Shown in pieces: positions 11,585-60,117 of a stretch of DNA of 64,000 nucleotides. Below the pieces are notes generated by a model, which was not told the origin of the DNA, made no database searches, and saw only the letters and a program-made list of their open reading frames with translations. This DNA is from Arabidopsis thaliana (taxonomy: Eukaryota; Streptophyta; Magnoliopsida; Brassicales; Brassicaceae). Where the stretch lies: contig NC_003070.9 in NCBI RefSeq assembly GCF_000001735.4, forward strand, positions 20,073,971 through 20,137,970, in the 5' to 3' direction. The translations under genes and the position numbers were made by a program. Every line of letters starts with the position of its first letter. Positions within the stretch are counted from its first letter, which is position 1.

Positions 11585-11598
11585 TGGTATCAGAGCTC

Positions 11599-35488: not shown

Positions 35489-36195
35489 GGAGTTTTCTTT
35501 TGTTTTGTTTCTACCACTGTTGGATTATTTTGGTTTAGTTGTTGTCTGCATCTAATGTTGTTGTTATATTGGTTTTAGAAGAGTGATGAAAGAGAAGTTG
35601 TAGGAAAATGGCATTTGCTTTTTAGATGTCTATAGAAGGAAAAAGGCTTGACCAGTTTTTCAGAGTAGACCATTATAAAGGGTACTAGTTTTATGAAATA
35701 GCAGTACACATTTAGATTTTCATTATTCTTTATTTTTTTGTTCTATCATTTTCAACTTGTTGTTTTATACTACTCTTTAGATTCTGATATGCATCACTAT
35801 AAAATGACAAAATTGTGGATAATAAACAATGTTTAAAAAGAAGAAGATGGTAGAATGGCTAAACAAACAAACAAAAATAACAAATTCTAAAACAACATAA
35901 ATTTTTCTGATAGTTTACTTTAAACTTAAACACATGTTTGACTCTAAGAAAAATAAATGTATATTGTAATCACTTTAATCGTGTTCTCATTTCATATATA
36001 CAGAATTATGGACTTATATTGATAAATGATAATACTAGTAGCAATATAAGTCCTATTTTTTTTTATAAAAATAGATGTCGTGTTTTAAAAACAAGAACTT
36101 AAACTTGTTGAGTTAAACCATGGTTGGCTTAATAAATTGAAGGATATATATCAAACTGAACTAAATAGATTTGGATAGTAATTTAGTAAGCAGAA
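35489..36195. other. Remorin promoter and left flank of the segmental duplication
   Basis: TC-rich leader next to the remorin start, then AT-rich DNA. From about 36090 it is homologous to 39600 onward (older duplication). No gene seen. Confidence 0.5.
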
Positions 36196-37129: not shown

Positions 37130-37890
37130 TAACGTATGGACCTGATCCTGAAATGATATGGACGTAACTTGAATCTGTTTCTAGCTTTAGCTAGTTTGTC
37201 TGCTACTCGATTATTACACCCATCAAGTTTGACATATTTCTGTCTTTTCTTCAACATAAATCACAAGCTGTTGCTAGCCACCTTCAATGATGATCAAACG
37301 GATTCCCTGACATCAAAGACATTGGTAATGCGTGAAGGAAACTGAAATCTTTAGCTTCAATAGGATTTACGCTCTTTGATATGTCCAATAGATGAACTTC
37401 TTGCAAACATGAAGACATCTAAGTCGTCTCGAGCTATCCAACCCAAACCCATTGGAGCATTATTTGCTTCTTTAAAACTGCAATCGTGGTTGCATTTTCT
37501 CCATCCGTTAGATGGGTGGTGCCAAGTTCAAGTTGTATTTGCCTGATTCGTTGTAAGGGAATGTTATAGATCGTTTTGGTACTTATCTCCTGGGATATTC
37601 ACATTCGTCCACTCTTTTACACCGTCTCGTACCTTTCTCACATCCGCTAGGAGATTTTTATATATCCTGAAAAATTCAAGTAATTTTCTTAATTTCCAAA
37701 GTATCTCCAAATAGGCCAAAATGTGAAAGCAACGACTCAACATTGTCTTCTAGGTTGCAACAAGTATAGTTTAATTAATTGATGATATAGCGGGACGTTG
37801 GAAATCCTTCAAGCAGCCAAAATATGTGACCAATTGAAGAGGACGTGATGAATTGTCTCCCTAACTTGGCACCATCGTTAGCAACATGGG
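37130..37890 (-). mobile_element. LINE (non-LTR) relic, 3' part, copy A
   Basis: Broken minus-strand frames resemble the end of plant LINE-type reverse-transcriptase proteins: a zf-RVT-like stretch (CQVRETIHHVLFNWSHILAAW) and then an RNase H domain (CSFKEANNAPMGLGWIARDD). Several stops and frame changes interrupt it. It is a non-autonomous fossil with no visible target duplication. The matching part of the second older-duplication unit (39900-40560) lacks it, so it arrived after, or was lost from, that unit. Confidence 0.65.
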
Positions 37891-38258
37891 GTCAATGGTT
37901 ATTCCTATAGAACTTCTTTTTGTGCACTATCATATCAAGAAACTGTCAGCATTTACCAGCAACGAGAATGCAAATGCAATGAACCGAAATGGACGACCAT
38001 TTCTAAGCTTATCAACTAATAGTTCTATTACTATATACTATATTGTATGTGACGATGTGCACGATATATATTTTTCTAATACTCGAATCTCACACGTGAC
38101 AACGACCTTACGTGTATGTACGTGTTGAATAGAATTAAGATACGTTTTATAAACTTCTCTTATCTCACATATTCAACATGTGGATGAAGATCTTCGTATT
38201 TTTTATTTTAATTTTTATGATACACCCATAAACTGAATTATTACTAGCTAGTAGAGGC

Positions 38259-38266
38259 TATAAATA
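38259..38266 (+). promoter_or_regulatory. TATA box of LURP-related gene 1, copy A
   Basis: TATAAATA, 66 bp before the ATG at 38325. The paralogue has TATATAAAT at 40962, 65 bp before its ATG. Copy B equivalents lie at 50824 and 53527. Confidence 0.7.
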
Positions 38267-38324
38267 CGAAGAAGATATCTATATATATACTATCTATCAG
38301 TGCCAAAAAAAAGTTTTTCAATAT

Positions 38325-39087
38325 ATGCAAATATACAATCCTATTTCTCCGGTGAAAACCATGGTGAAGATTTATCCTCACCTGGCGTTTCCGGTGGATA
38401 TGGACGTCGTACAAGACAAGATTTTGCCCTACTTAACGACGGAGCAAGAGAGGTTCACGATTTGGATGAAATCTTTGGTGTTCAATAGCAAAGGCTGCAC
38501 AGTTTTTGATTCCAAAGGAAACTTAATCTATCGAGTGGATAATTATGATTCCAAGAGTTGGAGTAATGAAGTTTACTTTATGGATTTAAACGGCAAAATT
38601 TTGTTTACTTTACGTCAAAAGGTAATACTAAACATTTCATCAATGTTTTCTAAGAATTTATAAGTTCCTATAATTATTATTTTATTTTACCTTGCAAGTT
38701 CATTTTTGTTGTGTGCATGTATATATATAGAAACTGGGATTCTTCAAATCTTGGGAAGGATATAACTCAACCGGGACCAGATTTCGACTAAGAAAGATTT
38801 TCAAGATTTTGCCAAGAGAATCATCTTCGTCTTACAAAGTTGTAATGGGATCACGCATAGTTGATGGTGATCAACAATCTTGTTATAAGATTGTAAATCG
38901 TGGATCAGTTTTCGCAATCAAGGATGGATCGGGAAGATTAATGGCAGAAGTTAAAAACAAACTATCGGATATTAGTGGTTTGGATCTTGGAGATGATGTT
39001 TTGACAATGATGGTGGAGCCACAACTAGATCATTCTTTAATAATGGGTATTGTTATAGCTTATAAACTTACCAAATGTAAATTGTGA
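38325..39087 (+). CDS. LURP-one-related protein 1, copy A (DUF567)
   Basis: Exons 38325-38621 and 38731-39087, 217 residues, full length for the family. The LOR/tubby-like C-terminal fold is indicated by FTIWMKSLVFNSKGCTVFDS, GNLIYRVDNYDSKS, GKILFTLRQKKL, then SSSYKVVMGSRIVDGDQQSC and DVLTMMVEPQLDHSLIMGIV. LURP1 is known for late upregulation in response to the oomycete Hyaloperonospora, and relatives are assumed to be membrane-associated. A function here is not shown. TATA box 66 bp upstream. It is the older-duplication paralogue of the gene at 41027 (about 75 percent identical by eye). Confidence 0.93.
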
Positions 39088-39124
39088 TAATCAGGTGGTA
39101 ATCTTGAAGGTAAGCATGTTTTAA

Positions 39125-39512
39125 AGCTAATTAAACGTTGGCATAAACCCCAAATATCTGGCTTGAAATTGGATATTGAAAAGATTGCACCAGAATGCGG
39201 AGAAGCTCGGCATCGTTCATCCTCATAAAAGTCAAAACAACCAATCAGTTCTCTCTTTTTTTATATTTTGGTATGGAAACCTAATTCTCTTACTTAATAT
39301 TCAATCCATTCTTTTCCTCCAACTTCTTCGTAAATGGCGGATGAAACTATAACCCTGTTTCAGCTTATTGCCAAACCCGAACCGCGCACCATGGAATAGT
39401 ACTGATCCAACGAGTATGTTTGAACAAGCTCAAGCTGCCATTCAATCATCGCTATCATGACCGTGATTACTCGTTTTCCCGGTCGTGAGAAGACCCTTTA
39501 AGCGTGATTTTT
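39125..39512 (+). pseudogene. eIF2B-alpha first-exon relic, copy A
   Basis: Starts with the leader-like CATAAACCCCAAATATCTGG (compare 41937 onward) and an ATGGCGGATGAA at 39334. It continues as a decayed version of exon 1 of eIF2B-alpha (compare 42093-42260): QLIAKPEPRTME for AYYQTRAAHHGI, and CAAGCTCAAGCTGCC in common. Stops and frame changes interrupt it. The later exons are absent. Confidence 0.8.
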
Positions 39513-40961
39513 ATACGGATGTATGTTTTACTAATACTAGTACCAATTCCACAACATAAACCAAAAGTGTTTTGAAATTAGGGTCATGTTTCTGTTAACA
39601 ATATCTTTAACTAGCTGAGTTAACCATAATTGAATTACTAAAATATTTATCAAACTGAATTAAATAGATTTGGATGGTAATTTAGTCAGCAGAAAGAATT
39701 GGAATTGGTGAAGAAGATAATAGACTAATAGTAAAGGGGTCATGGAAGTTATACGAATGCATGAAAAGATAATAGAGATATCAATCATACGATTTTATTA
39801 AACTAAAGGACCATGTGATCAGATTGTAATTTGTAATAGCAGAATGAGCCATCTCATATTCCATACATGGTTTTAAATAGGCTTGTCCATTTCGGTACTG
39901 TTCATATACTGTATGTTCCAATTTTTATCCCATATTTGTGTGTTTAAAAAAAATAAAAATAGCTACTTGAAATTGTTTATAGAATGAGATATATATATGT
40001 ATTATTCGTTTGGTTATTCAGCTTTTATAAAATTAATGAAAATCATCTAAATATGTAAGTTTTTCAGAAATACCCGTATCGAAAGTGACCTTTAATTTAA
40101 CCGTCCCGACATCAAGCCTTACCCAAATTAGTAAGAATTTGAATAATAAATTTTGCTACTTAAATTTCTTGAACTCGTTCCGCGACCCAAAATTCTCGTC
40201 CCTATCTTATCGAAAATTGTCATGAATGTTTTTTGTTATGTGAATTACTTGCTCTCGATTTATGTGTTATTTTACTGTCCTGATATCAAGATGTACACGC
40301 CTAGTTTTAAGTGGCAACAACATATAATTTCTTACGCATGTTTCAATTTTCAAACACAAAAAAAACGTAACCTGTGACACTTTGACATTATTTTTTGGGT
40401 ATGCGAATGAATTGAAATTAATTTATAGTGTTCTAGAGAATAAAAGAAAGTGCCCTAAAAGAAATGATATCAAATTTATTTGCAAATACAAAGAAAAAAA
40501 AAAACACAATTTTTGCAAATATAAACAATAGCTTTTACAGTTAATCTTCCTGTCAAAACATTCTTTTGTGCAGTATCATTCCGATAAACTGTCAGCATTG
40601 GACAACGGATAGAACACAAATGGAATGGACCACAACTGAAGACCGATTCTAAGCCTAGCAACTAATAATTTGAAGTTATCTTATTATATTGTATGAACAG
40701 TTTTTTCAATATTTTTTGCTCTATTAATCGAATCTCACAATCACATTAGTCACGTTACAACGACCAGACATGTAGTAACAAACAAAAAGGACCATACATT
40801 TTTTTTTGTTTAACAAAAACGACCATACATGTTATCGCTACATGATTTTCTCTGTTATTTTTATTTTGTATCTCACATTGAACATGTGGACGAAGACCTT
40901 CGTATATATATATTTTCTAATGACACACCAAAAACTGAATTACTACTACTAGTAGAAAGTA

Positions 40962-40970
40962 TATATAAAT
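40962..40970 (+). promoter_or_regulatory. TATA box of LURP-related gene 2, copy A
   Basis: TATATAAAT, 65 bp upstream of the ATG at 41027, in the same position as in the paralogue upstream. Confidence 0.65.
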
Positions 40971-41026
40971 GCGAAGAAGACATATAACTATCATTCAGAG
41001 CCAAACATAAAAAAAAATCAATACAT

Positions 41027-41797
41027 ATGCAAATATATAGCAACAACCGAACGATGAGGACCAAATTTTCACTTAATCTGATTTCTCCGGCGAAGAACAT
41101 GGTGAAGATTCATCCTGACAAGGCGTTTCCTGTGGATTTTAGCGTGGGAGAAGGCAAGACTTCGCCGTACTTAACGACGGAGAAAGAGAGTTTCACGATT
41201 TGGATGAGATCTCTTGTGTTTCATAGTAAAGGCTGCACAGTTTTTGATTCCAAAGGAAACTTAATCTATCGAGTGGATAATTATAACTCCAAGAGTTGTA
41301 GTGAAGTTTACCTTATGGACTTATACGGCAAAATCTTGTTTACATTACGTCAAAAGGTAAACAATAAAACATATCATCTTATGTTCTTATAGTTTTCTTA
41401 AAAGTATTTTGTTCTAACTCTTTTATTTTCTTGGTTATAGAAATTGGGATTATTCAAATCTTGGAAAGGATATAACTCAACCGGGACAAGATTTCAACTA
41501 AGAAAAAACTTCAAGATATTGCCAAAGGGTTCATCTTCATCATACAAAGTTGTAATGGGATCGCGTATAGTTGATGGTGATCATCAATCTTGTTATAAGA
41601 TTGTAAAACGCAAATCGGTTTTCACAATCGAGGATGGATCAGGAAGATTATTGGCAGAAGTTAAAAAGAAACAATCAAATATCAAAAGTTTAGATCTTGG
41701 GAAAGATGTATTAACAATGATGGTGGAGCCACAAGTAGATCACTCTTTAATAATGGGTATTGTTATAGCATATAGTCTTCTCAAATGTAAATTGTGA
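41027..41797 (+). CDS. LURP-one-related protein 2, copy A (DUF567)
   Basis: Exons 41027-41356 and 41441-41797, 228 residues. Same fold and same intron position as the gene at 38325, with an 11-residue longer N-terminus (MQIYSNNRTMRTKFSLNL). Landmarks: FTIWMRSLVFHSKGCTVFDS, GNLIYRVDNYNSKS, SSSYKVVMGSRIVDGDHQSC, DVLTMMVEPQVDHSLIMGIV. An in-frame ATG (MRTKFSL) 27 nt downstream is an alternative start. Neighbour of the eIF2B-alpha gene, with which it was co-duplicated. Family is certain; biochemical function is unknown. Confidence 0.93.
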
Positions 41798-41990
41798 TAA
41801 TTAGTAGGGGTGAGATTGAACTATTGTGTAAACTTTAGGGTCGTAAATGTAAATATACAATTTTGGAGAGCCAAATGATAATATTATTGTTAATGAAGTT
41901 CTTAAAGCTAAATTAAATGTTATTACAGGCATGAGGCATAAACCCCAAAGTCTCTAGCTTGAAACTGAGATTTTCGAAGAATTCATCAAA

Positions 41991-44299
41991 ATGTGGAGAG
42001 AATCGGCTTCGTTTATCCTCGATAAGCATCAGAACAACAAACCCATTTCTCTAACTCATTCAATTGATTCTCCTCCACCACCATCTGCTTCAATGGCGGA
42101 TGAAAACCCTAACCCTAATCCTATTTCGGCTTATTACCAAACCAGAGCGGCGCATCATGGAATTGTGACTAGCGAGTGGTTGGAGCAGGCTCAAGCCGCG
42201 GTTCGACGTTACCCTGATCGTGATTCCTTAGTTTCGGGAAGACCCTTTAGCGTGATTGAGGACTTTAATAGTTGGAGACAGCAACCTGATTTGGCGGAGG
42301 CTGTTGCGGCGATTCGTGCTCTTGCGGCTGTTATTAGGGCTAGTGAAGCTACTACTATGATGGAACTTGAAATTGAACTCAAGAAAGCTTCTGATACTCT
42401 GAAAGTAAGAGACTTTCTTCTTTGTGTTGAAATTTGGGTTCTGAATTTTGGATGACTCTGTATTGTGATTCAATCTTTAACGAACTCTTAGCATTGAGTA
42501 TTTTGGTTCATGCCCTGACGATAACTTAGGATTAGCTTGCGGCGTAAATGGTAGATGTGATCATCATCGTGGCATTGCATTGACTTGTCGAGTTGTGAAT
42601 TTTGCTTGGCATTATATGTCCGAGTAATCTCTGCATTGTGGATTTTATTGATGGTGTTAAGAATCTCTGGTTGCTCTATTTGGAAAGATAGGTTGAAAGT
42701 TTAATCTTTTTGGATATCTTGATGCTGATGCTTCTGGTTTTACTTCACTTCTTCTGTGATGCTATACTTCTTTGAAATATTCTGTTTGTTTTGAAATGAG
42801 CAATTGGTTGTTTCCTTTGATTTGAGTGTCAGATTGTACATTTGAGTCCTGCTCAAATCGTAGCTTTCAGTTTTTAATGAACATGCTATTAGTTTGCAAC
42901 TTAGCATTGATTATTTTGACAAAAAATCAGGTTTAGTTTGTGTCAAAATGGTAGATGTGATTATGGCATTGCATTGACTTGTAGAGTTCTGAATTGTACT
43001 TGGCATTTCTGCGAGTTTCTTGATCGCTAAGACTCTCTGGTGGCTCTAAAGGGAAAGATAGGTTGAAAGTTTTATCTTTCCTGGATGATGTGTTTATGGT
43101 TTTAATTTACATCTTCTATGATGCTATACTTCTTTGAAATATTATGTCTCTATGGAAATTGGTAGCTGATGGATTTCGTTAGTCCTGAGTGTCAGATGGT
43201 ATTATTTGAGTAGCTTTCAGTGTTTTCGAGGTAGAACTCTAAAAATGTAAGATTGTCTTCATGTTTCAGTCATGGGACACAACGTCGATATCCTTAACAG
43301 CGGGATGTGATCTATTCATGCGCTATGTGACTCGAACATCTGCTTTAGAATTTGAGGACTTCAACTCTGCGAAATCCCGTGTGCTTGAACGTGCTGAGAA
43401 ATTTGGGGAAATATCTTGCAAGGTCAGTGTTCTCTTCGAACGGGAATTGTTTACATAAATAGTTAGTAGAAGAAGAGTTTGAACAGTAACTGGAAATTTT
43501 GCAGGCCCGAACGATAATTGCAATGCTTAGTCAAGATTTCATATTTGATGGGTGTACTATTCTGGTCCATGGTTTCTCCAGAGTTGTGTTTGAAATACTA
43601 AAGACATCAGCGCAAAACAAGAAACTCTTTCGAGTGTTGTGCACAGGTACTTTTCTTAAGACTTAGAGATCAATTGGATATGACATCTTCCAGTTATCTC
43701 ATTCTGATTTTCCTAACTGACAATCACATTTCCGTTGCATCCGTGGAAACAAAATACAGAGGGAAGGCCAGATAAAACAGGTGTACTGCTAGCTAACGAG
43801 CTTGCAAAACTTGATATTCCTGTGAAGCTTCTGATCGATTCAGCCGTGGCCTATAGCATGGATGAAGTAGACATGGTGTTTGTTGGAGCTGATGGAGTAG
43901 TTGAAAGTGGCGGGATAATTAACATGATGGGAACTTACCAAATCGCCCTAGTCGCACAGAGTATGAATAAACCAGTCTATGTAGCTGCAGAGAGTTACAA
44001 GGTAACCTCCCAAAACTTTAAAAGTTTTAAAAACTTGATTGCAAAAACATCAATGATCCATCATCTTCTTTCTTGTTTTCTTGCAAGCGAAGTTTGCACG
44101 GCTCTACCCGTTGGATCAAAAGGACTTAGAACCAGCCTTGCGACCTATTGATTTCAGTGTTCCTGTTCCTCCTAAGGTTGAGGTAGAAAGATCTGCAAGG
44201 GACTACACTCCTCCTCAGTACTTGACTCTACTCTTCACTGATCTTGGTGTTCTCACTCCATCTGTAGTAAGTGACGAGCTTATTCAGCTTTACTTGTAA
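41991..44299 (+). CDS. Translation initiation factor eIF2B subunit alpha, copy A
   Basis: Exons 41991-42404, 43270-43422, 43505-43646, 43760-44001, 44093-44299, 385 residues. eIF2B is the guanine-nucleotide exchange factor for eIF2; alpha is a regulatory subunit sensing eIF2 phosphorylation. Motifs: PISAYYQTRAAHHG, the helical AEAVAAIRALAAVIRAS, GCDLFMRYVTRT, TILVHGFSRVV, then the Rossmann-like end (EGRPDKTGVLLA, DMVFVGADGVVESGGIIN, GTYQIALVAQ, DLGVLTPSVVSDELIQLYL). A second ATG at 42093 (MADENPNPN) corresponds to the usual start; the extra 34 residues (MWRESASF...) are poorly conserved in kind and may not be made. Telomere-like AAACCCTAACCCTAA lies at 42106. Intron 1 carries a tandem duplication. 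Confidence 0.95.
42488..43230 (+). repeat. Intronic tandem duplication in eIF2B-alpha intron 1, copy A
   Basis: About 42488-42880 and 42900-43230 are diverged direct repeats. Shared words include AATGGTAGATGTGAT, GGCATTGCATTGACTTGT, GAAAGATAGGTTGAAAGTTT and GATGCTATACTTCTTTGAAA, in the same order. The intron is therefore roughly twice its ancestral size. Copy B: 55053-55795. Confidence 0.85.
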
Positions 44300-45827
44300 G
44301 TGAAGCTGTCTAATTCCTATAGCTGGTCTGAAATCTCTCATTTTTTGTATAAAAATAAAAACAAAAACACCATATTTTTGGCTATACACAGACATAGTTT
44401 GTCTCTGATTCTTACTGCTAATGCACATTTTTTTTGGTAGTAGCGAGATCTTTGTGACTTGTCATCTTTACTCAAAATTTATCACCCAAGTTTCAATATA
44501 TAGTTACTAGTATATATTATAGTATGATCATTTCTGGTTTTTGATTTCTTGATTAGAGATATGTATTGCTATATTGTTTTATTATTGTTAGAATCATTTG
44601 TGTTTTTTTGCAAAAGTATATATATCCTTTTAACACTTTAAAATGTTTGCACAAAAAAAAAAATGGTATGGTATGCGCTGGATATTGAAAAGTTGCAATT
44701 ATTGCAGTGTAGTGATAAATGACCTATAATGTAACATGGAATATCATATGATTTGATGTTTTGAAAATGAGAGCATGAGAAACGTGATAGAATTAAAGAT
44801 GGTAAATTCTTAGTATTATTTTAATGCTTGGTCTAAGTAACTACTCCCTCTGTTTCATAATATAAGTTGTTTTGGAACAATTTTTTTGTTTTACTATATA
44901 AGTTGTTTTCAAGTTTCTATACAAATTATATATTATTTTAATATTTTATGATTATTTATGTTATGTAGTCTCTTTTGTGATTAGTAGAATTTTTTAAAAG
45001 TAAATATTTTTAATTTGCGTGTTTTTATTTAAAACAATTTATATTGTAAAACAGATGGAATATTATTATAGGCTATAGGCCTATAGCTAATGTTTGGATC
45101 TAACTGCTAACGTTGTAAGATTCATAAAACACCGGCCACTTACAATCCCACGTTTTTTTTAAAAATATTACGTTCTTTCCTGGAATTACCCATATACACG
45201 TTTTTTTTGTTATCTTCGTGCTCAACTGTTTACAAAAGTATACTGTATTCGGGAAGGTGAAAAAAGATAAAATTATTTCGGAACATCTAATATACTAACA
45301 CAATAAATGAAATTAAAAATATATTTGTAAAGACATTAAAGATGGCAAATATATCTGTCCACACCACATTTTAATTCTTTTTTATATCATTAGTCTATAA
45401 CATTTGATTAAGTTTCACGTTTTAGAAAAGTGATTATGTATAAACTAAAAATATAAATAGATTACTTTACAACAAACTTTTTTTTAGCATTTTACATTTG
45501 TTCATTTAACAACAACTATAACATATTGAATTCGAGTTTTTTTTTCCTTTTCCCAATCATTCCATTGAATGTATGAGTTTAGGTCTTAGGGTTATTTTCT
45601 GATGAATAGCAAAAGTAGTAATTCCCGACAAGAAATTGGCCAATGTCGAAAAAGTCAAATTCCACATTTTAATTGAGACATAAAAGACACATCACTCAAT
45701 ACAGTAAAATATCTACTTTTATATATTCCCAAAAACCATTCGGCTTCTGCTTCCACTTCATCTCTCTCTCTCTCTCCCTTCTCACATTTCTCTCCACTCA
45801 GATTTCCAATTCCTAAAGATAGAGAGA
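44300..45827. other. Intergenic between eIF2B-alpha and the FLZ gene, copy A
   Basis: eIF2B-alpha 3' flank, a MITE-like element (44841-45066), AT-rich DNA, and a (TC)n pyrimidine leader (45759-45780) just before the FLZ start. Confidence 0.5.
44841..45066. mobile_element. Stowaway-like MITE, copy A
   Basis: The left end CTACTCCCTCTGTTTCATAA then TATAAGTTGTTTT matches the reverse complement of the right end (AAAACAATTTATATTGTAAA then ACAGATGGAATATTA) over about 33 bp with some mismatches. CTCCCTC(C/T)GTTTCA is the hallmark of Tc1/mariner-derived Stowaway MITEs in plants; TA flanks fit. About 225 bp, no coding capacity. Confidence 0.72.
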
Positions 45828-46307
45828 ATGACTAAAATCTCTGTTGGATTGCAACTTGTGACAAGAGATTCGAGGGAAAAACTAAACAATATAGTGATCA
45901 AATCTTCACTGAGACTAAACCGATCCAATCCAAACATCTCGGAGCTTTGTTTCCTTAAAACATGTCATCTCTGCAATAAACAACTCCATCAAGACAAAGA
46001 TGTTTACATGTACAGGTACGATATTTTTTTTTTTTTATTACTATATTATATACTCTTTGTAAACGAAAGATGTTCTGTTCTTGATTCTCAATTTTTTTTT
46101 TTTGTTGAAAACAGAGGAGATTTGGGATTTTGTAGTAGAGAGTGCAGAGAAAGTCAGATGTTGATTGATGATAGAAAAGAACTAGAGGCTTCGACGAAGA
46201 TGATGTTGGCTTCGTACAGACGATGTAATAACGGCGCCGGAAAAAGCGAGTCTCGGAATTTGTTTGATGATCTCCGGCGACGACGTCAATTATTTATAGT
46301 TCCTTGA
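45828..46307 (+). CDS. FCS-like zinc finger (FLZ, DUF581) protein, copy A
   Basis: Exons 45828-46015 and 46115-46307, 126 residues. The FLZ domain (about 45-88) has CFLKTCHLCNKQLHQDKDVYMY across the intron, then RGDLGFCSRECRESQM, i.e. the C-x2-C...FCSxEC pattern of the plant-specific family. FLZ proteins bind SnRK1 kinase subunits and act as adaptors in energy and stress signalling. The basic C-terminus (LRRRRQLFIV) may aid nuclear location. A (TC)n tract sits in the leader. I recall this locus as At1g53885. Confidence 0.94.
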   Translation: MTKISVGLQLVTRDSREKLNNIVIKSSLRLNRSNPNISELCFLKTCHLCNKQLHQDKDVYMYRYDIFFFLLLYYILFVNERCSVLDSQFFFFVENRGDLGFCSRECRESQMLIDDRKELEASTKMMLASYRRCNNGAGKSESRNLFDDLRRRRQLFIVP

Positions 46308-47509
46308 GGCTTCTTTAAGCAATATCTAATTATAGTTTTTTTGGTTACACATCTTATGAAAGTTATTAGTAAAAGAAAGAGAATTAAATTGTATCTCCGG
46401 TTGTCATTTTTCAAAATCTTAAATGTTAATTGGACAGTTTATGTGGTGATCTCATTCTCAGGTGGTTTAATTACTGATTTAGTAAAAATGCTCATTAATT
46501 AGTTAGGTTAATTGTAGCTGTTGACCAAAAATAAAGATTACTTGTAGTCACACGTTAATTAGTGAGATAATTAAATGATACAAAGTGTCATATGAGATAT
46601 GACTCATATTTCATAACTAAATCTGATTAATTCGAAGAACATTTTAATATTCAGATTGGATCGTGACATGATGGATATGAACTGGATAAAGAATTATTTT
46701 AAAGAAGAAAATCTCTCTGATAAATAAATTATTCGATTTGCTTCTTTTTTTTTTATGTATGGGAGATATTTTAAATGTATGTGACAGGGACATAGACACT
46801 CTTTGGTTGAGAAGATATGAACAACTCATTTAGTCACGTGTTGAATATGTACAGGCCAAAATACTGTATTTTAAACAATTGGAATTATTGTTTTACTTGT
46901 CAAGTGATCACTTTGTTCAACCCAATTCCCCAACTAATTTATTGTTTTATAGTGTCACACTGTCACGAGTAACTAAGCAGGTTCGTGGTCTCGGCCCAAT
47001 TAAAAGGCCAATCAATTAAACTAAATGCAAGTGCCTATAACTCGACCTATGAAGCCCACTATCTTAGCGATTCGGCCCAAAAAGACAACTTGCCTTGTGT
47101 AAAATGATTTCACTTTGTATCCATCCAATGATTCCAATTAATGAGAAGTTATGTTCAGATTTAAGAATTCCAGTTAGTGAACAAAAAATCAACTACTGGA
47201 ATTTGTTTTGCTTCTTATAAATTTGGTTAGAAAAACAAAACATAAGGTTTATATCTATAAACACAAAGAAATTGTACTAATGTACAGTTCCGAAACGAGT
47301 ATAGTCAATTATTAAAAGTTAAAATAGTGAAACAAATAATTGCTCCATGAATGACATATTGACATCATTATCTGTTTCTTTGAGATAAGCTAATTTAGGA
47401 ACTTGTCTCAATCCTGTAAAATGATTTGGACCCTACCTATTTTATTCATCTGTCTTTCTTTGCGTTCACAATTTGATCTTAATATATAAATATATAGTAC
47501 ATGATTGCA

Positions 47510-47552
<43 letters not shown>

Positions 47553-48706
47553 GTATAACTATACACGTATGAAGTTGAATTTTATAAAATAAAATTTTCT
47601 TTTAACTGAATTTCCAATAGTTGTTTATACATAATTTAGAAAGTTGCAACCATAAAATATATTTCACCATAAAACAACAAAATATGGTTTCCACGTACAC
47701 ATACACATAACACATACCTACTGAATATTCCGTAATTTACGATGCCTGATAATTTGGACCTAATAAAGTTAGTTAAGAGTAAACAGAATTACAAGGAAAT
47801 TTTAAATTGAGTTTAAGAAAACTAGTAATTGATTTGGAATGCTAGTTATCAAACAAAAGGACAAATATATTTTTCGGATTATTTTTAATAACTTTTTTGT
47901 TTGTCACGAAACGACAAAAGCTTTGTCATAAAAACCAAATCCTATCAACTTGCTCAAAAAGCTTCAATAATATCGTACGTGTCCTGCACACGCAGATTCA
48001 TAAATGTGTTTCTATGCTTTTACAATTTTAGCCTTATGCATAACAGCATAAGGTCTTAATGGTCCTCTCTCCTAATCAAAATTACATTCAAAAGTTGTTG
48101 TATAGTTTTTCATTATATTTTCAATAATTCATTTATTTTGTGCCTATGTTAAAACATTTTCATAATTCATTTATAATATTATTTAAATTTAAATGTTAAA
48201 TATCTGTTCTGCGTTGGCTACTCCTGAATGCAAACAACATTGCAAAAGTATTTAGTTGTGTTTTTAATGCCTAATCACATTAATAGATACTAGATCTAAG
48301 GGAAATAGACTTTATGAAAAAATCAATTGACGTTAGGTAAAAATTTGTTTAGACTATTTTTGTCTACCAGCAGACAACTCTGACTAAATTTTTAATCTTA
48401 TTTACTGCAACTAACTATTAATAAACTAATAAAATCCTAATTTACAATATAGATCTACAGTAAATGAATATAAAAGTCTGGTAGTACCGTAAATAGTACA
48501 TCAAGATAAGGGTATAATAGTAAACAACCATCGTACTCGCTTCATCTTTTATTTTACTCTAAAATCTCTTTCTGAAGAAAACAACAAAGCAAAGCGTTGA
48601 AGAGAGAAGAAGAAGCAAAGATATAACCCCCAAAAGTATCAATTAGTTTCCATTTTCGCCGCTAAGATTCTGTTTTCGAACATTTACACCCTCAAGAATC
48701 GCCGCC
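46308..48706. other. Intergenic region with the RAP2.12 promoter, copy A
   Basis: AT-rich 2.4 kb. GGCCCA words (46994, 47073), a (TA)n tract (47512-47544) and a purine-rich leader (48595-48620, AGAGAGAAGAAGAAG) before the RAP2.12 start. No other gene seen. Confidence 0.5.
47512..47544. repeat. (TA)n microsatellite, copy A
   Basis: About 16 TA units; the same tract stands at 60077-60109. Equal length in both copies as far as I can count, which supports a very young duplication. Confidence 0.9.
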
Positions 48707-48814
48707 ATGTGTGGAGGAGCTATAATATCCGATTTCATTCCACCGCCGAGGTCTCGCCGTAGAATTGGAATAGGTAAGCCTTTTAACAAAAAAGAGAAGA
48801 AAGAATTGGAATAG
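48707..48814 (+). CDS. Truncated RAP2.12 5' stub fused to duplication-junction sequence
   Basis: At the A/B junction the first 18 codons of RAP2.12 ([18 protein letters not shown]) run without a frame break into copy B intergenic DNA for 17 more codons (RIGIGKPFNKKEKKELE) and stop at 48812-48814. The stub has the complete upstream DNA of RAP2.12, including its leader, so it should be transcribed like RAP2.12. It keeps the Met-Cys N-degron but has no AP2 domain. A strong donor (ATAG/GTAAGCC, 48773) lies within the fused part, so splicing to a downstream exon is possible. Translation is an inference. It may equally be called a 5' pseudogene fragment. Confidence 0.75.
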   Translation: MCGGAIISDFIPPPRSRRRIGIGKPFNKKEKKELE

Positions 48815-50889
48815 GTGAAGAAGATAACAGTAGAGTAATTAGAGTAGTAGTATATAGAGTGGTCATGGACGCTTCACTCTTGGGAGAAGTACGAATGCAT
48901 CAAAAGATGTGGCCCCTGTCTCTATATTCGTAAAATGATTATCATCACAATATCATATAAAGGCCCATGGGTTAATAAAGACTATAAAGGGCCCGTAGAG
49001 TGATCTCAGAAACAGCTTTTCTTATTATTTGAGAAGTTTTTTTTTGTTGTCTGCTAAACTTGTAAATAACATTGAAAATGAAGTGGAAGTATTACAAAAG
49101 CATTACTTAAACTAGAGTAACCTTGGCCAAAAAGAAAATAAAAAACAAGGTTACAATACTTAGAATTGATGATAGAAATTTATCTGATCCAAAGTAACAT
49201 TAGAGATCTCTAACGCTTCCGAAAGCGCCTTCCCGTAATGGTGTTGCGAATCTCGATCAATTATTTGAGAATATCCACACCAAAATCCATATATTTATTT
49301 CATAAATAAAAATGTAGATTGTTTTGGTATTCAAGACCAGATCTGATTTCTCCAAAAACTTTAAAACTTCGGGTTCAACTGGTTGAGCTATTCCATCTCA
49401 GGTAACACCGTAAAAAAACAAGATATTTTTTTGCACATGTTTCAATCATATTAAAAAAAAATGCAAGATCTTTTTTAGTTAAAATTTTGTATGTGAACAA
49501 ATGAATATTAATTGCTAAGTTTAGTTGACAAAAAAGCGTTGACGAAAGAAAAATGCTAAGTTTCTGTGAATGAAAATGAAAAAATAAAAATATCTAAATT
49601 TATTTGCAAAGATAGATTTTAGAGAGAAAAATCTACACCACAATTTTCAAAATATGATTAAACAACAACTTATAACATCTAATATTATGAATTATAACGT
49701 ATGGACCTGATCCTGAAATGATATGGACGTAACTTGAATCTGTTTCTAGCTTTAGCTAGTTTGTCTGCTACTCGATTATTACACCCATCAAGTTTGACAT
49801 ATTTCTGTCTTTTCTTCAACATAAATCACAAGCTGTTGCTAGCCACCTTCAATGATGATCAAACGGATTCCCTGACATCAAAGACATTGGTAATGCGTGA
49901 AGGAAACTGAAATCTTTAGCTTCAATAGGATTTACGCTCTTTGATATGTCCAATAGATGAACTTCTTGCAAACATGAAGACATCTAAGTCGTCTCGAGCT
50001 ATCCAACCCAAACCCATTGGAGCATTATTTGCTTCTTTAAAACTGCAATCGTGGTTGCATTTTCTCCATCCGTTAGATGGGTGGTGCCAAGTTCAAGTTG
50101 TATTTGCCTGATTCGTTGTAAGGGAATGTTATAGATCGTTTTGGTACTTATCTCCTGGGATATTCACATTCGTCCACTCTTTTACACCGTCTCGTACCTT
50201 TCTCACATCCGCTAGGAGATTTTTATATATCCTGAAAAATTCAAGTAATTTTCTTAATTTCCAAAGTATCTCCAAATAGGCCAAAATGTGAAAGCAACGA
50301 CTCAACATTGTCTTCTAGGTTGCAACAAGTATAGTTTAATTAATTGATGATATAGCGGGACGTTGGAAATCCTTCAAGCAGCCAAAATATGTGACCAATT
50401 GAAGAGGACGTGATGAATTGTCTCCCTAACTTGGCACCATCGTTAGCAACATGGGGTCAATGGTTATTCCTATAGAACTTCTTTTTGTGCACTATCATAT
50501 CAAGAAACTGTCAGCATTTACCAGCAACGAGAATGCAAATGCAATGAACCGAAATGGACGACCATTTCTAAGCTTATCAACTAATAGTTCTATTACTATA
50601 TACTATATTGTATGTGACGATGTGCACGATATATATTTTTCTAATACTCGAATCTCACACGTGACAACGACCTTACGTGTATGTACGTGTTGAATAGAAT
50701 TAAGATACGTTTTATAAACTTCTCTTATCTCACATATTCAACATGTGGATGAAGATCTTCGTATTTTTTATTTTAATTTTTATGATACACCCATAAACTG
50801 AATTATTACTAGCTAGTAGAGGCTATAAATACGAAGAAGATATCTATATATATACTATCTATCAGTGCCAAAAAAAAGTTTTTCAATAT
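48815..50889. other. Intergenic, copy B, left of LURP-related gene 1
   Basis: Same content as 36250-38324: AT-rich DNA, LINE relic and LURP promoter. In this copy it lies downstream of a RAP2.12 promoter rather than next to the remorin gene. Confidence 0.6.
49695..50455 (-). mobile_element. LINE relic, copy B
   Basis: Same as 37130-37890 at +12,565: zf-RVT-like and RNase H-like remnants on the minus strand, many breaks, no difference seen from copy A. Confidence 0.65.
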
Positions 50890-51652
50890 ATGCAAATATA
50901 CAATCCTATTTCTCCGGTGAAAACCATGGTGAAGATTTATCCTCACCTGGCGTTTCCGGTGGATATGGACGTCGTACAAGACAAGATTTTGCCCTACTTA
51001 ACGACGGAGCAAGAGAGGTTCACGATTTGGATGAAATCTTTGGTGTTCAATAGCAAAGGCTGCACAGTTTTTGATTCCAAAGGAAACTTAATCTATCGAG
51101 TGGATAATTATGATTCCAAGAGTTGGAGTAATGAAGTTTACTTTATGGATTTAAACGGCAAAATTTTGTTTACTTTACGTCAAAAGGTAATACTAAACAT
51201 TTCATCAATGTTTTCTAAGAATTTATAAGTTCCTATAATTATTATTTTATTTTACCTTGCAAGTTCATTTTTGTTGTGTGCATGTATATATATAGAAACT
51301 GGGATTCTTCAAATCTTGGGAAGGATATAACTCAACCGGGACCAGATTTCGACTAAGAAAGATTTTCAAGATTTTGCCAAGAGAATCATCTTCGTCTTAC
51401 AAAGTTGTAATGGGATCACGCATAGTTGATGGTGATCAACAATCTTGTTATAAGATTGTAAATCGTGGATCAGTTTTCGCAATCAAGGATGGATCGGGAA
51501 GATTAATGGCAGAAGTTAAAAACAAACTATCGGATATTAGTGGTTTGGATCTTGGAGATGATGTTTTGACAATGATGGTGGAGCCACAACTAGATCATTC
51601 TTTAATAATGGGTATTGTTATAGCTTATAAACTTACCAAATGTAAATTGTGA
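50890..51652 (+). CDS. LURP-one-related protein 1, copy B
   Basis: Exons 50890-51186 and 51296-51652, 217 residues, translated sequence identical to the gene at 38325. TATA box at 50824. It differs from its twin only by neighbourhood: about 2.1 kb upstream stands the truncated RAP2.12 promoter, so it may be exposed to hypoxia-pathway gene read-through that copy A is not. I recall At1g53890 in this position. Confidence 0.93.
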
Positions 51653-51689
51653 TAATCAGGTGGTAATCTTGAAGGTAAGCATGTTTTAA

Positions 51690-52077
51690 AGCTAATTAAA
51701 CGTTGGCATAAACCCCAAATATCTGGCTTGAAATTGGATATTGAAAAGATTGCACCAGAATGCGGAGAAGCTCGGCATCGTTCATCCTCATAAAAGTCAA
51801 AACAACCAATCAGTTCTCTCTTTTTTTATATTTTGGTATGGAAACCTAATTCTCTTACTTAATATTCAATCCATTCTTTTCCTCCAACTTCTTCGTAAAT
51901 GGCGGATGAAACTATAACCCTGTTTCAGCTTATTGCCAAACCCGAACCGCGCACCATGGAATAGTACTGATCCAACGAGTATGTTTGAACAAGCTCAAGC
52001 TGCCATTCAATCATCGCTATCATGACCGTGATTACTCGTTTTCCCGGTCGTGAGAAGACCCTTTAAGCGTGATTTTT
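51690..52077 (+). pseudogene. eIF2B-alpha first-exon relic, copy B
   Basis: Same decayed segment as 39125-39512 at +12,565, with the ATGGCGGATGAA at 51899. It shares every interruption with the copy A relic by eye, which shows that the decay preceded the 12.6-kb duplication. Confidence 0.8.
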
Positions 52078-53591
52078 ATACGGATGTATGTTTTACTAAT
52101 ACTAGTACCAATTCCACAACATAAACCAAAAGTGTTTTGAAATTAGGGTCATGTTTCTGTTAACAATATCTTTAACTAGCTGAGTTAACCATAATTGAAT
52201 TACTAAAATATTTATCAAACTGAATTAAATAGATTTGGATGGTAATTTAGTCAGCAGAAAGAATTGGAATTGGTGAAGAAGATAATAGACTAATAGTAAA
52301 GGGGTCATGGAAGTTATACGAATGCATGAAAAGATAATAGAGATATCAATCATACGATTTTATTAAACTAAAGGACCATGTGATCAGATTGTAATTTGTA
52401 ATAGCAGAATGAGCCATCTCATATTCCATACATGGTTTTAAATAGGCTTGTCCATTTCGGTACTGTTCATATACTGTATGTTCCAATTTTTATCCCATAT
52501 TTGTGTGTTTAAAAAAAATAAAAATAGCTACTTGAAATTGTTTATAGAATGAGATATATATATGTATTATTCGTTTGGTTATTCAGCTTTTATAAAATTA
52601 ATGAAAATCATCTAAATATGTAAGTTTTTCAGAAATACCCGTATCGAAAGTGACCTTTAATTTAACCGTCCCGACATCAAGCCTTACCCAAATTAGTAAG
52701 AATTTGAATAATAAATTTTGCTACTTAAATTTCTTGAACTCGTTCCGCGACCCAAAATTCTCGTCCCTATCTTATCGAAAATTGTCATGAATGTTTTTTG
52801 TTATGTGAATTACTTGCTCTCGATTTATGTGTTATTTTACTGTCCTGATATCAAGATGTACACGCCTAGTTTTAAGTGGCAACAACATATAATTTCTTAC
52901 GCATGTTTCAATTTTCAAACACAAAAAAAACGTAACCTGTGACACTTTGACATTATTTTTTGGGTATGCGAATGAATTGAAATTAATTTATAGTGTTCTA
53001 GAGAATAAAAGAAAGTGCCCTAAAAGAAATGATATCAAATTTATTTGCAAATACAAAGAAAAAAAAAAACACAATTTTTGCAAATATAAACAATAGCTTT
53101 TACAGTTAATCTTCCTGTCAAAACATTCTTTTGTGCAGTATCATTCCGATAAACTGTCAGCATTGGACAACGGATAGAACACAAATGGAATGGACCACAA
53201 CTGAAGACCGATTCTAAGCCTAGCAACTAATAATTTGAAGTTATCTTATTATATTGTATGAACAGTTTTTTCAATATTTTTTGCTCTATTAATCGAATCT
53301 CACAATCACATTAGTCACGTTACAACGACCAGACATGTAGTAACAAACAAAAAGGACCATACATTTTTTTTTGTTTAACAAAAACGACCATACATGTTAT
53401 CGCTACATGATTTTCTCTGTTATTTTTATTTTGTATCTCACATTGAACATGTGGACGAAGACCTTCGTATATATATATTTTCTAATGACACACCAAAAAC
53501 TGAATTACTACTACTAGTAGAAAGTATATATAAATGCGAAGAAGACATATAACTATCATTCAGAGCCAAACATAAAAAAAAATCAATACAT

Positions 53592-54362
53592 ATGCAAATA
53601 TATAGCAACAACCGAACGATGAGGACCAAATTTTCACTTAATCTGATTTCTCCGGCGAAGAACATGGTGAAGATTCATCCTGACAAGGCGTTTCCTGTGG
53701 ATTTTAGCGTGGGAGAAGGCAAGACTTCGCCGTACTTAACGACGGAGAAAGAGAGTTTCACGATTTGGATGAGATCTCTTGTGTTTCATAGTAAAGGCTG
53801 CACAGTTTTTGATTCCAAAGGAAACTTAATCTATCGAGTGGATAATTATAACTCCAAGAGTTGTAGTGAAGTTTACCTTATGGACTTATACGGCAAAATC
53901 TTGTTTACATTACGTCAAAAGGTAAACAATAAAACATATCATCTTATGTTCTTATAGTTTTCTTAAAAGTATTTTGTTCTAACTCTTTTATTTTCTTGGT
54001 TATAGAAATTGGGATTATTCAAATCTTGGAAAGGATATAACTCAACCGGGACAAGATTTCAACTAAGAAAAAACTTCAAGATATTGCCAAAGGGTTCATC
54101 TTCATCATACAAAGTTGTAATGGGATCGCGTATAGTTGATGGTGATCATCAATCTTGTTATAAGATTGTAAAACGCAAATCGGTTTTCACAATCGAGGAT
54201 GGATCAGGAAGATTATTGGCAGAAGTTAAAAAGAAACAATCAAATATCAAAAGTTTAGATCTTGGGAAAGATGTATTAACAATGATGGTGGAGCCACAAG
54301 TAGATCACTCTTTAATAATGGGTATTGTTATAGCATATAGTCTTCTCAAATGTAAATTGTGA
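53592..54362 (+). CDS. LURP-one-related protein 2, copy B
   Basis: Exons 53592-53921 and 54006-54362, 228 residues, identical in translation to the gene at 41027. TATATAAAT at 53527. Full domain, no break. Family and uncertainty as for its twin. Confidence 0.93.
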
Positions 54363-54555
54363 TAATTAGTAGGGGTGAGATTGAACTATTGTGTAAACTT
54401 TAGGGTCGTAAATGTAAATATACAATTTTGGAGAGCCAAATGATAATATTATTGTTAATGAAGTTCTTAAAGCTAAATTAAATGTTATTACAGGCATGAG
54501 GCATAAACCCCAAAGTCTCTAGCTTGAAACTGAGATTTTCGAAGAATTCATCAAA

Positions 54556-56864
54556 ATGTGGAGAGAATCGGCTTCGTTTATCCTCGATAAGCATCAGAAC
54601 AACAAACCCATTTCTCTAACTCATTCAATTGATTCTCCTCCACCACCATCTGCTTCAATGGCGGATGAAAACCCTAACCCTAATCCTATTTCGGCTTATT
54701 ACCAAACCAGAGCGGCGCATCATGGAATTGTGACTAGCGAGTGGTTGGAGCAGGCTCAAGCCGCGGTTCGACGTTACCCTGATCGTGATTCCTTAGTTTC
54801 GGGAAGACCCTTTAGCGTGATTGAGGACTTTAATAGTTGGAGACAGCAACCTGATTTGGCGGAGGCTGTTGCGGCGATTCGTGCTCTTGCGGCTGTTATT
54901 AGGGCTAGTGAAGCTACTACTATGATGGAACTTGAAATTGAACTCAAGAAAGCTTCTGATACTCTGAAAGTAAGAGACTTTCTTCTTTGTGTTGAAATTT
55001 GGGTTCTGAATTTTGGATGACTCTGTATTGTGATTCAATCTTTAACGAACTCTTAGCATTGAGTATTTTGGTTCATGCCCTGACGATAACTTAGGATTAG
55101 CTTGCGGCGTAAATGGTAGATGTGATCATCATCGTGGCATTGCATTGACTTGTCGAGTTGTGAATTTTGCTTGGCATTATATGTCCGAGTAATCTCTGCA
55201 TTGTGGATTTTATTGATGGTGTTAAGAATCTCTGGTTGCTCTATTTGGAAAGATAGGTTGAAAGTTTAATCTTTTTGGATATCTTGATGCTGATGCTTCT
55301 GGTTTTACTTCACTTCTTCTGTGATGCTATACTTCTTTGAAATATTCTGTTTGTTTTGAAATGAGCAATTGGTTGTTTCCTTTGATTTGAGTGTCAGATT
55401 GTACATTTGAGTCCTGCTCAAATCGTAGCTTTCAGTTTTTAATGAACATGCTATTAGTTTGCAACTTAGCATTGATTATTTTGACAAAAAATCAGGTTTA
55501 GTTTGTGTCAAAATGGTAGATGTGATTATGGCATTGCATTGACTTGTAGAGTTCTGAATTGTACTTGGCATTTCTGCGAGTTTCTTGATCGCTAAGACTC
55601 TCTGGTGGCTCTAAAGGGAAAGATAGGTTGAAAGTTTTATCTTTCCTGGATGATGTGTTTATGGTTTTAATTTACATCTTCTATGATGCTATACTTCTTT
55701 GAAATATTATGTCTCTATGGAAATTGGTAGCTGATGGATTTCGTTAGTCCTGAGTGTCAGATGGTATTATTTGAGTAGCTTTCAGTGTTTTCGAGGTAGA
55801 ACTCTAAAAATGTAAGATTGTCTTCATGTTTCAGTCATGGGACACAACGTCGATATCCTTAACAGCGGGATGTGATCTATTCATGCGCTATGTGACTCGA
55901 ACATCTGCTTTAGAATTTGAGGACTTCAACTCTGCGAAATCCCGTGTGCTTGAACGTGCTGAGAAATTTGGGGAAATATCTTGCAAGGTCAGTGTTCTCT
56001 TCGAACGGGAATTGTTTACATAAATAGTTAGTAGAAGAAGAGTTTGAACAGTAACTGGAAATTTTGCAGGCCCGAACGATAATTGCAATGCTTAGTCAAG
56101 ATTTCATATTTGATGGGTGTACTATTCTGGTCCATGGTTTCTCCAGAGTTGTGTTTGAAATACTAAAGACATCAGCGCAAAACAAGAAACTCTTTCGAGT
56201 GTTGTGCACAGGTACTTTTCTTAAGACTTAGAGATCAATTGGATATGACATCTTCCAGTTATCTCATTCTGATTTTCCTAACTGACAATCACATTTCCGT
56301 TGCATCCGTGGAAACAAAATACAGAGGGAAGGCCAGATAAAACAGGTGTACTGCTAGCTAACGAGCTTGCAAAACTTGATATTCCTGTGAAGCTTCTGAT
56401 CGATTCAGCCGTGGCCTATAGCATGGATGAAGTAGACATGGTGTTTGTTGGAGCTGATGGAGTAGTTGAAAGTGGCGGGATAATTAACATGATGGGAACT
56501 TACCAAATCGCCCTAGTCGCACAGAGTATGAATAAACCAGTCTATGTAGCTGCAGAGAGTTACAAGGTAACCTCCCAAAACTTTAAAAGTTTTAAAAACT
56601 TGATTGCAAAAACATCAATGATCCATCATCTTCTTTCTTGTTTTCTTGCAAGCGAAGTTTGCACGGCTCTACCCGTTGGATCAAAAGGACTTAGAACCAG
56701 CCTTGCGACCTATTGATTTCAGTGTTCCTGTTCCTCCTAAGGTTGAGGTAGAAAGATCTGCAAGGGACTACACTCCTCCTCAGTACTTGACTCTACTCTT
56801 CACTGATCTTGGTGTTCTCACTCCATCTGTAGTAAGTGACGAGCTTATTCAGCTTTACTTGTAA
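54556..56864 (+). CDS. Translation initiation factor eIF2B subunit alpha, copy B
   Basis: Exons 54556-54969, 55835-55987, 56070-56211, 56325-56566, 56658-56864, 385 residues, identical in translation to copy A. Same internal ATG (MADENPNPN) as the probable conserved start, at 54658. Both copies seem intact, so the dose of this decamer subunit would be doubled relative to single-copy partners unless silenced. I recall At1g53900. Confidence 0.95.
55053..55795 (+). repeat. Intronic tandem duplication in eIF2B-alpha intron 1, copy B
   Basis: Counterpart of 42488-43230; the two diverged halves are the same as in copy A. Confidence 0.85.
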
Positions 56865-58392
56865 GTGAAGCTGTCTAATTCCTATAGCTGGTCTGAAATC
56901 TCTCATTTTTTGTATAAAAATAAAAACAAAAACACCATATTTTTGGCTATACACAGACATAGTTTGTCTCTGATTCTTACTGCTAATGCACATTTTTTTT
57001 GGTAGTAGCGAGATCTTTGTGACTTGTCATCTTTACTCAAAATTTATCACCCAAGTTTCAATATATAGTTACTAGTATATATTATAGTATGATCATTTCT
57101 GGTTTTTGATTTCTTGATTAGAGATATGTATTGCTATATTGTTTTATTATTGTTAGAATCATTTGTGTTTTTTTGCAAAAGTATATATATCCTTTTAACA
57201 CTTTAAAATGTTTGCACAAAAAAAAAAATGGTATGGTATGCGCTGGATATTGAAAAGTTGCAATTATTGCAGTGTAGTGATAAATGACCTATAATGTAAC
57301 ATGGAATATCATATGATTTGATGTTTTGAAAATGAGAGCATGAGAAACGTGATAGAATTAAAGATGGTAAATTCTTAGTATTATTTTAATGCTTGGTCTA
57401 AGTAACTACTCCCTCTGTTTCATAATATAAGTTGTTTTGGAACAATTTTTTTGTTTTACTATATAAGTTGTTTTCAAGTTTCTATACAAATTATATATTA
57501 TTTTAATATTTTATGATTATTTATGTTATGTAGTCTCTTTTGTGATTAGTAGAATTTTTTAAAAGTAAATATTTTTAATTTGCGTGTTTTTATTTAAAAC
57601 AATTTATATTGTAAAACAGATGGAATATTATTATAGGCTATAGGCCTATAGCTAATGTTTGGATCTAACTGCTAACGTTGTAAGATTCATAAAACACCGG
57701 CCACTTACAATCCCACGTTTTTTTTAAAAATATTACGTTCTTTCCTGGAATTACCCATATACACGTTTTTTTTGTTATCTTCGTGCTCAACTGTTTACAA
57801 AAGTATACTGTATTCGGGAAGGTGAAAAAAGATAAAATTATTTCGGAACATCTAATATACTAACACAATAAATGAAATTAAAAATATATTTGTAAAGACA
57901 TTAAAGATGGCAAATATATCTGTCCACACCACATTTTAATTCTTTTTTATATCATTAGTCTATAACATTTGATTAAGTTTCACGTTTTAGAAAAGTGATT
58001 ATGTATAAACTAAAAATATAAATAGATTACTTTACAACAAACTTTTTTTTAGCATTTTACATTTGTTCATTTAACAACAACTATAACATATTGAATTCGA
58101 GTTTTTTTTTCCTTTTCCCAATCATTCCATTGAATGTATGAGTTTAGGTCTTAGGGTTATTTTCTGATGAATAGCAAAAGTAGTAATTCCCGACAAGAAA
58201 TTGGCCAATGTCGAAAAAGTCAAATTCCACATTTTAATTGAGACATAAAAGACACATCACTCAATACAGTAAAATATCTACTTTTATATATTCCCAAAAA
58301 CCATTCGGCTTCTGCTTCCACTTCATCTCTCTCTCTCTCTCCCTTCTCACATTTCTCTCCACTCAGATTTCCAATTCCTAAAGATAGAGAGA
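56865..58392. other. Intergenic between eIF2B-alpha and the FLZ gene, copy B
   Basis: Counterpart of 44300-45827, with the MITE and the (TC)n leader tract (58324-58345). Confidence 0.5.
57406..57631. mobile_element. Stowaway-like MITE, copy B
   Basis: Same element as 44841-45066 carried along by the segmental duplication; not an independent insertion. Confidence 0.72.
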
Positions 58393-58872
58393 ATGACTAA
58401 AATCTCTGTTGGATTGCAACTTGTGACAAGAGATTCGAGGGAAAAACTAAACAATATAGTGATCAAATCTTCACTGAGACTAAACCGATCCAATCCAAAC
58501 ATCTCGGAGCTTTGTTTCCTTAAAACATGTCATCTCTGCAATAAACAACTCCATCAAGACAAAGATGTTTACATGTACAGGTACGATATTTTTTTTTTTT
58601 TATTACTATATTATATACTCTTTGTAAACGAAAGATGTTCTGTTCTTGATTCTCAATTTTTTTTTTTTGTTGAAAACAGAGGAGATTTGGGATTTTGTAG
58701 TAGAGAGTGCAGAGAAAGTCAGATGTTGATTGATGATAGAAAAGAACTAGAGGCTTCGACGAAGATGATGTTGGCTTCGTACAGACGATGTAATAACGGC
58801 GCCGGAAAAAGCGAGTCTCGGAATTTGTTTGATGATCTCCGGCGACGACGTCAATTATTTATAGTTCCTTGA
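58393..58872 (+). CDS. FCS-like zinc finger (FLZ, DUF581) protein, copy B
   Basis: Exons 58393-58580 and 58680-58872, 126 residues, translation identical to copy A. Its 3' neighbour here is the complete RAP2.12 gene, as in the ancestral order. I recall At1g53903. Confidence 0.94.
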   Translation: MTKISVGLQLVTRDSREKLNNIVIKSSLRLNRSNPNISELCFLKTCHLCNKQLHQDKDVYMYRYDIFFFLLLYYILFVNERCSVLDSQFFFFVENRGDLGFCSRECRESQMLIDDRKELEASTKMMLASYRRCNNGAGKSESRNLFDDLRRRRQLFIVP

Positions 58873-60074
58873 GGCTTCTTTAAGCAATATCTAATTATAG
58901 TTTTTTTGGTTACACATCTTATGAAAGTTATTAGTAAAAGAAAGAGAATTAAATTGTATCTCCGGTTGTCATTTTTCAAAATCTTAAATGTTAATTGGAC
59001 AGTTTATGTGGTGATCTCATTCTCAGGTGGTTTAATTACTGATTTAGTAAAAATGCTCATTAATTAGTTAGGTTAATTGTAGCTGTTGACCAAAAATAAA
59101 GATTACTTGTAGTCACACGTTAATTAGTGAGATAATTAAATGATACAAAGTGTCATATGAGATATGACTCATATTTCATAACTAAATCTGATTAATTCGA
59201 AGAACATTTTAATATTCAGATTGGATCGTGACATGATGGATATGAACTGGATAAAGAATTATTTTAAAGAAGAAAATCTCTCTGATAAATAAATTATTCG
59301 ATTTGCTTCTTTTTTTTTTATGTATGGGAGATATTTTAAATGTATGTGACAGGGACATAGACACTCTTTGGTTGAGAAGATATGAACAACTCATTTAGTC
59401 ACGTGTTGAATATGTACAGGCCAAAATACTGTATTTTAAACAATTGGAATTATTGTTTTACTTGTCAAGTGATCACTTTGTTCAACCCAATTCCCCAACT
59501 AATTTATTGTTTTATAGTGTCACACTGTCACGAGTAACTAAGCAGGTTCGTGGTCTCGGCCCAATTAAAAGGCCAATCAATTAAACTAAATGCAAGTGCC
59601 TATAACTCGACCTATGAAGCCCACTATCTTAGCGATTCGGCCCAAAAAGACAACTTGCCTTGTGTAAAATGATTTCACTTTGTATCCATCCAATGATTCC
59701 AATTAATGAGAAGTTATGTTCAGATTTAAGAATTCCAGTTAGTGAACAAAAAATCAACTACTGGAATTTGTTTTGCTTCTTATAAATTTGGTTAGAAAAA
59801 CAAAACATAAGGTTTATATCTATAAACACAAAGAAATTGTACTAATGTACAGTTCCGAAACGAGTATAGTCAATTATTAAAAGTTAAAATAGTGAAACAA
59901 ATAATTGCTCCATGAATGACATATTGACATCATTATCTGTTTCTTTGAGATAAGCTAATTTAGGAACTTGTCTCAATCCTGTAAAATGATTTGGACCCTA
60001 CCTATTTTATTCATCTGTCTTTCTTTGCGTTCACAATTTGATCTTAATATATAAATATATAGTACATGATTGCA

Positions 60075-60117
<43 letters not shown>

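Follow-up and report, generated by a model that had tools for sequence, protein, structure and literature searches.

A truncated 5′ RAP2.12 fragment at the junction of a 12,565-bp tandem duplication in Arabidopsis thaliana

In the Arabidopsis thaliana reference genome, the upstream region and leader of RAP2.12 occur twice, together with the initial 54 bases of its coding sequence, in two positions 12,565 bp apart. The additional copy is best understood as a truncated 5′ RAP2.12 fragment, i.e. a partial-duplicate pseudogene, that arose in a blunt, non-homologous tandem duplication and is incidental and neutral, a reading to which we assign a probability of roughly 0.8. All coordinates below refer to the window, the whole stretch of 64,000 nucleotides that was analysed, which is located at C1:20073971-20137970.

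When the window is set against itself with a shift of 12,565 bases, positions 36196-48760 match positions 48761-61325 base for base, giving a block of 12,565 bp with 0 mismatches. The two units (unit 1, 36196..48760; unit 2, 48761..61325; both on the plus strand) follow each other head to tail, point in the same direction and meet at one new junction, 48760/48761, which identifies them as a tandem duplication with a junction fragment; unit 2 continues into the intact RAP2.12, and the duplication thus leaves this gene unbroken. The original prediction had placed a tandem-duplication junction at this position, preceded by a second RAP2.12 promoter and leader; the identical blocks bear out the former, and the latter is right as sequence, with 12,511 bp identical 5′ of the ATG.

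The junction (48760..48761) is blunt by comparison of the three flanks: the two parent edges have 0 bases in common, and 0 filler bases lie between them, which fits a blunt non-homologous event. Microhomology was rejected as the cause of the breakpoint on the same grounds, a hairpin was rejected with a DNA fold z-score of 0.26 around the junction, and a dispersed repeat was rejected with the nearest repeat-like stretch ~275 bases away. The exact junction 28-mer has 0 matches in bacterial/archaeal and viral contigs, which for a plant is uninformative. The probable course of events is that a blunt non-homologous event duplicated 12,565 bp in head-to-tail order, that the right edge of the copied block fell between RAP2.12 codons 18 and 19, and that the intact RAP2.12 was retained at the end of unit 2.

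Two units without any difference over 12.5 kb, and a junction that is known here from one assembly, could also indicate an assembly artefact in the reference instead of a real duplication, but this is quite unlikely. Both units presumably lie inside one BAC, T18A20, in which case clone overlap would not explain the duplication. A clone-end artefact at EcoRI, HindIII or BamHI sites was rejected, since none of these occurs within 60 bases of the junction. Furthermore, the errors in the Col-0 reference that are described in PMC6529160 are collapsed copies (SEC10, At4g22214 and mitochondrial DNA on Chr2), and hence go in the opposite direction.

At a mutation rate of 7e-9 per site per generation, 0 mismatches in 12,565 bp correspond to an upper 95% age bound of ~17,000 generations, barring gene conversion, and the duplication is therefore too young for selection to show. 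At the gene level it is already known, from the same reference, since the FLZ pair AT1G53885/AT1G53903 has been published as a tandem pair with 'exactly same gene sequence' (PMC4047054). In Arabidopsis, about 350 euchromatic regions are marked by tandem duplications specific to particular accessions (PMC7033125). For the RAP2.12 fragment itself, no description was found in the accessible parts of the open-access literature.

Each unit comprises two LOR-domain genes, an eIF2B-domain frame and an FLZ zinc-finger gene, followed by 2.4 kb up to the RAP2.12 ATG. Pfam was run on the open frames of unit 1, where it identifies LOR (two frames), IF-2B and zf-FLZ, and the content of unit 2 was carried over by sequence identity; unit 1 ends with the region upstream of RAP2.12 and the initial 54 bases of its coding sequence. 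The intact RAP2.12 coding region (61272..62611, plus strand) probably consists of two coding exons, judging from the open frames 61272-61604 and 61859-62611, and among the 8 frames scanned with Pfam the AP2 domain was found in the second RAP2.12 frame only. Within unit 1, the LOR frames at 38325-39087 and 41027-41797 (copies at 50890 and 53592) are 86% identical over the compared stretches of 300 and 228 bases; this older tandem pair inside each unit implies at least two rounds of duplication at the locus. A LOR gene lies immediately 5′ of the eIF2B-domain frame (41027-44151 and 53592-56716). As annotated, AT1G53880/AT1G53900 are reported to contain LOR and eIF2B domains together (PMC8624885), and in view of the adjacency this fusion may be a gene-model artefact.

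Two repeat features of the window deserve mention in their own right. Unit bases 275-504 (36470-36699 and 49035-49264) have diverged counterparts at 12 or more further genomic sites, with 72-86% identity, and are possibly an old dispersed repeat. Outside the units, positions 11191-16247 harbour a Copia-type LTR retrotransposon in which two identical 318-bp blocks, 4,739 bp apart, flank an unbroken frame of 1,532 residues with copia-type gag, integrase and reverse-transcriptase domains. The identical repeats suggest a recent insertion of this element; inspection of its flanks by eye gave no clear target-site duplication.

The fragment starts with an ATG at 48707, the counterpart of the true RAP2.12 start codon at 61272, and the identity between the two stops 54 coding bases further on, exactly after codon 18. 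From here the frame runs on into formerly intergenic DNA from the left edge of the unit, so that 48707-48814 (plus strand) encodes 35 residues in total: the first 18 RAP2.12 codons with the Met-Cys N-degron (48707..48760; translation, unit identity, motif search and alignment) and 17 junction-specific codons, RIGIGKPFNKKEKKELE, followed by a TAG stop (48761..48814; translation and unit identity). This is the composite frame that had been predicted, and translation reproduces it in both coordinates and phase. The predicted integrity of the Met-Cys N-degron and absence of a DNA-binding domain hold up as well: translation and motif alignment place the group VII ERF N-terminal motif MCGGA(I/V)ISD at the start of the fragment, and the AP2/ERF DNA-binding domain is missing from it, with 0 Pfam families (E <= 0.01) in the 35-residue frame.

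The sequence in front of the fragment is complete. All 12,511 bp between its ATG and the left edge of the unit equal the sequence 5′ of the real RAP2.12 ATG, and the second RAP2.12 upstream region proper, measured from the stop of the FLZ open frame to the ATG (46308..48706, plus strand), shows 100% identity with its counterpart in front of the real ATG. The last 500 bases before the fragment ATG (scan of 48207-48706) contain one TATA-like box, at 48469. The single upstream ATG, at 48464, is located just 5′ of this box and hence probably outside the leader. An AATAAA, a consensus match only, follows at 48974, 160 bases 3′ of the fragment stop. Rfam reports 0 families at gathering score in 46000-51000. 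Because the upstream region is complete, a short transcript ending in formerly intergenic DNA is plausible, and as a counterpoint to a wholly inert fragment it should be said that the upstream region, TATA-like box, start context and AATAAA would be compatible with a real small transcript. Any 35-residue product would probably be minor, short-lived and without effect on oxygen sensing.

Does the open frame across the junction carry meaning? In the window region 35600-38299, 31.7% of 2,700 start points are followed by at least 17 codons before a stop, and when the first exon of RAP2.12 was joined at random to the same region 20,000 times, the frame remained open for at least 17 codons in 31.0% of cases. 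With about one in three comparable joins open equally long, a meaningful in-frame tail was rejected; the open frame is the outcome expected from an arbitrary join. The duplication and the degron coding start, on the other hand, exceed chance. The ERF-VII start pattern Met-Cys-Gly-Gly-Ala-Ile/Val-Ile-Ser-Asp, formulated as degenerate DNA with some codons looser, has 6 matches in the whole genome (119.66 Mb, 7 contigs), and the reversed pattern has 0. Two of the six are RAP2.12 and the fragment; the other four, on C1, C2 and C3 (two), align over the motif and are, judged by position and sequence, presumably HRE1, HRE2, RAP2.2 and RAP2.3. A protein search of the genome recovered five of these six places and missed the one on C2. 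Since the ERF-VIIs of Arabidopsis are five in number (RAP2.12, RAP2.2, RAP2.3, HRE1 and HRE2; PMC5376641), the fragment is the sole extra ERF-VII-type start found.

An intact degron raises the question of whether a peptide from the fragment could enter the N-degron pathway. In vitro, PCO1 and PCO4 modify the 10-residue peptide RAP2(2-11), RAP2(2-13) 12-mers have been used with ATE1 in a coupled oxidation-arginylation assay (both PMC5376641), and the 14-mer RAP2(2-15) is fully converted by all five PCOs (PMC6066304). The start of the fragment has the Met-Cys substrate sequence and is identical to these published PCO/ATE1 substrate peptides; by analogy, a fragment peptide that is released and Met-trimmed could, and probably would, enter the pathway. 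In eukaryotes, Met is usually excised once the nascent chain has reached 45-82 residues, and NAC-positioned MetAP1 acts at ~50 (reviewed in PMC11773813). The fragment chain ends at 35 residues, short of this range, which by the general rule makes Met removal doubtful and leaves only processing after release. The original prediction that the peptide is an N-degron substrate can thus be upheld in principle for the PCO/ATE1 step, for which 10-14 residues are enough in vitro, but not with any assurance for the removal of Met.

The same prediction went further and proposed that such a peptide possibly competes with genuine ERF-VIIs. In its full form, this reading holds that the fragment gives rise to an oxygen-labile peptide and that this peptide, by competing with the ERF-VIIs for PCO, ATE1 or PRT6, tunes hypoxia signalling. 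The intact Met-Cys degron, the complete upstream region, the acceptance of 10-14 residues in the PCO and ATE1 assays and the lysines of the new tail, which could accept ubiquitin, all speak for it, but the points against it weigh more, and we regard it as highly improbable. PCO Km values for the 14-mer range from 88 to 690 uM (PMC6066304), and in a simple competitive model, in which concentrations of 1 and 10 uM were assumed, the fragment would slow the PCOs by 0.14-1.12% at 1 uM and by 1.4-10.2% at 10 uM. Peptidomimetics that resemble RAP2.12(2-15) and were intended as inhibitors instead stimulated AtPCO4 2.51- to 5.96-fold, although these mimics carry Cys analogues and so differ from a Cys peptide, and anaerobic preincubation of AtPCO4 with the substrate itself produced a similar response (PMC12630348); even the sign of any fragment effect is therefore uncertain. 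Moreover, at 35 residues the nascent chain does not reach the 45-82 at which Met is usually excised, and a peptide that is degraded in air should not accumulate in air. Competition at the PCO step is very unlikely and would be negligible at plausible peptide levels. Overall, the original observation is confirmed to the base, whereas the decoy mechanism proposed with it is weak.

The duplicated promoter could instead act as DNA, either by starting a chimeric transcript that reads through or is spliced into unit 2, or by altering the expression of the LOR copy 2.1 kb downstream, whose frame begins on the same strand at 50890. A 5′ splice-site-like sequence, AATAG/GTAAGCC, whose GT lies at 48774, offers a possible intron start (48774..48781, plus strand) 13 bases 3′ of the junction. 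If used, it would remove most of the 17-codon tail and alter the tail of the peptide; joined to the 7 candidate acceptors that pass a pyrimidine filter, it yields hypothetical spliced frames of 28-75 residues, two of which start with the degron and extend to 73-75 residues. These splice sites are consensus matches only, and six AATAAA/ATTAAA-type signals, that at 48974 included, lie between the junction and the LOR gene. An RNA-seq study of cold priming lists At1g53870 as up and At1g53890 as down in primed plants (PMC7301481), which could speak for such an effect, but with units of identical sequence these opposite changes may be an artefact of read assignment. Taken together, a role for the duplicated promoter as DNA is unlikely. 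A further notion combines it with oxygen sensing: the fragment would be a sixth ERF-VII-type Met-Cys start, transcribed from the full RAP2.12 promoter, and its oxygen-labile product, spliced at 48774 or in the form of the 35-residue peptide, would change how ERF-VIIs are turned over, either because it occupies PRT6 or because it activates PCO4, and would do so only where a line has the duplication. We consider this a long shot.

The fragment is most likely an incidental by-product of duplication, and it matters chiefly for technical reasons. Where short reads, probes, PCR primers or ribosome footprints fall wholly in the duplicated 5′ part, they permit no single-copy assignment. An editing guide directed at the RAP2.12 N-terminus would find two targets and might remove the entire 12.6-kb unit, and claims about use of the RAP2.12 start site or editing of its N-degron in this accession should allow for the second copy. 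As biology, the locus provides a clean case of a duplication that places a ready-made degron and promoter before arbitrary sequence.

The fragment is akin to several known systems and differs from each. Like other breakpoint fragments of Arabidopsis tandem duplications, it results from a forward duplication with one edge in a gene, lies at the junction and leaves an intact gene surviving; unlike them, the truncated gene here happens to carry its N-terminal degron in full and to retain all of its upstream region. With RAP2.12 (AT1G53910) it shares an identical upstream region, start context and first 18 codons, but it lacks AP2 and the remaining protein and amounts to 35 residues. Its start also recurs in the synthetic RAP2.12/RAP2.2 N-degron peptides, RAP2(2-11) and RAP2(2-15) as PCO substrates and RAP2(2-13) with ATE1 (PMC5376641, PMC6066304); these peptides, however, are supplied without Met, whereas the natural fragment needs transcription, translation and Met trimming first.
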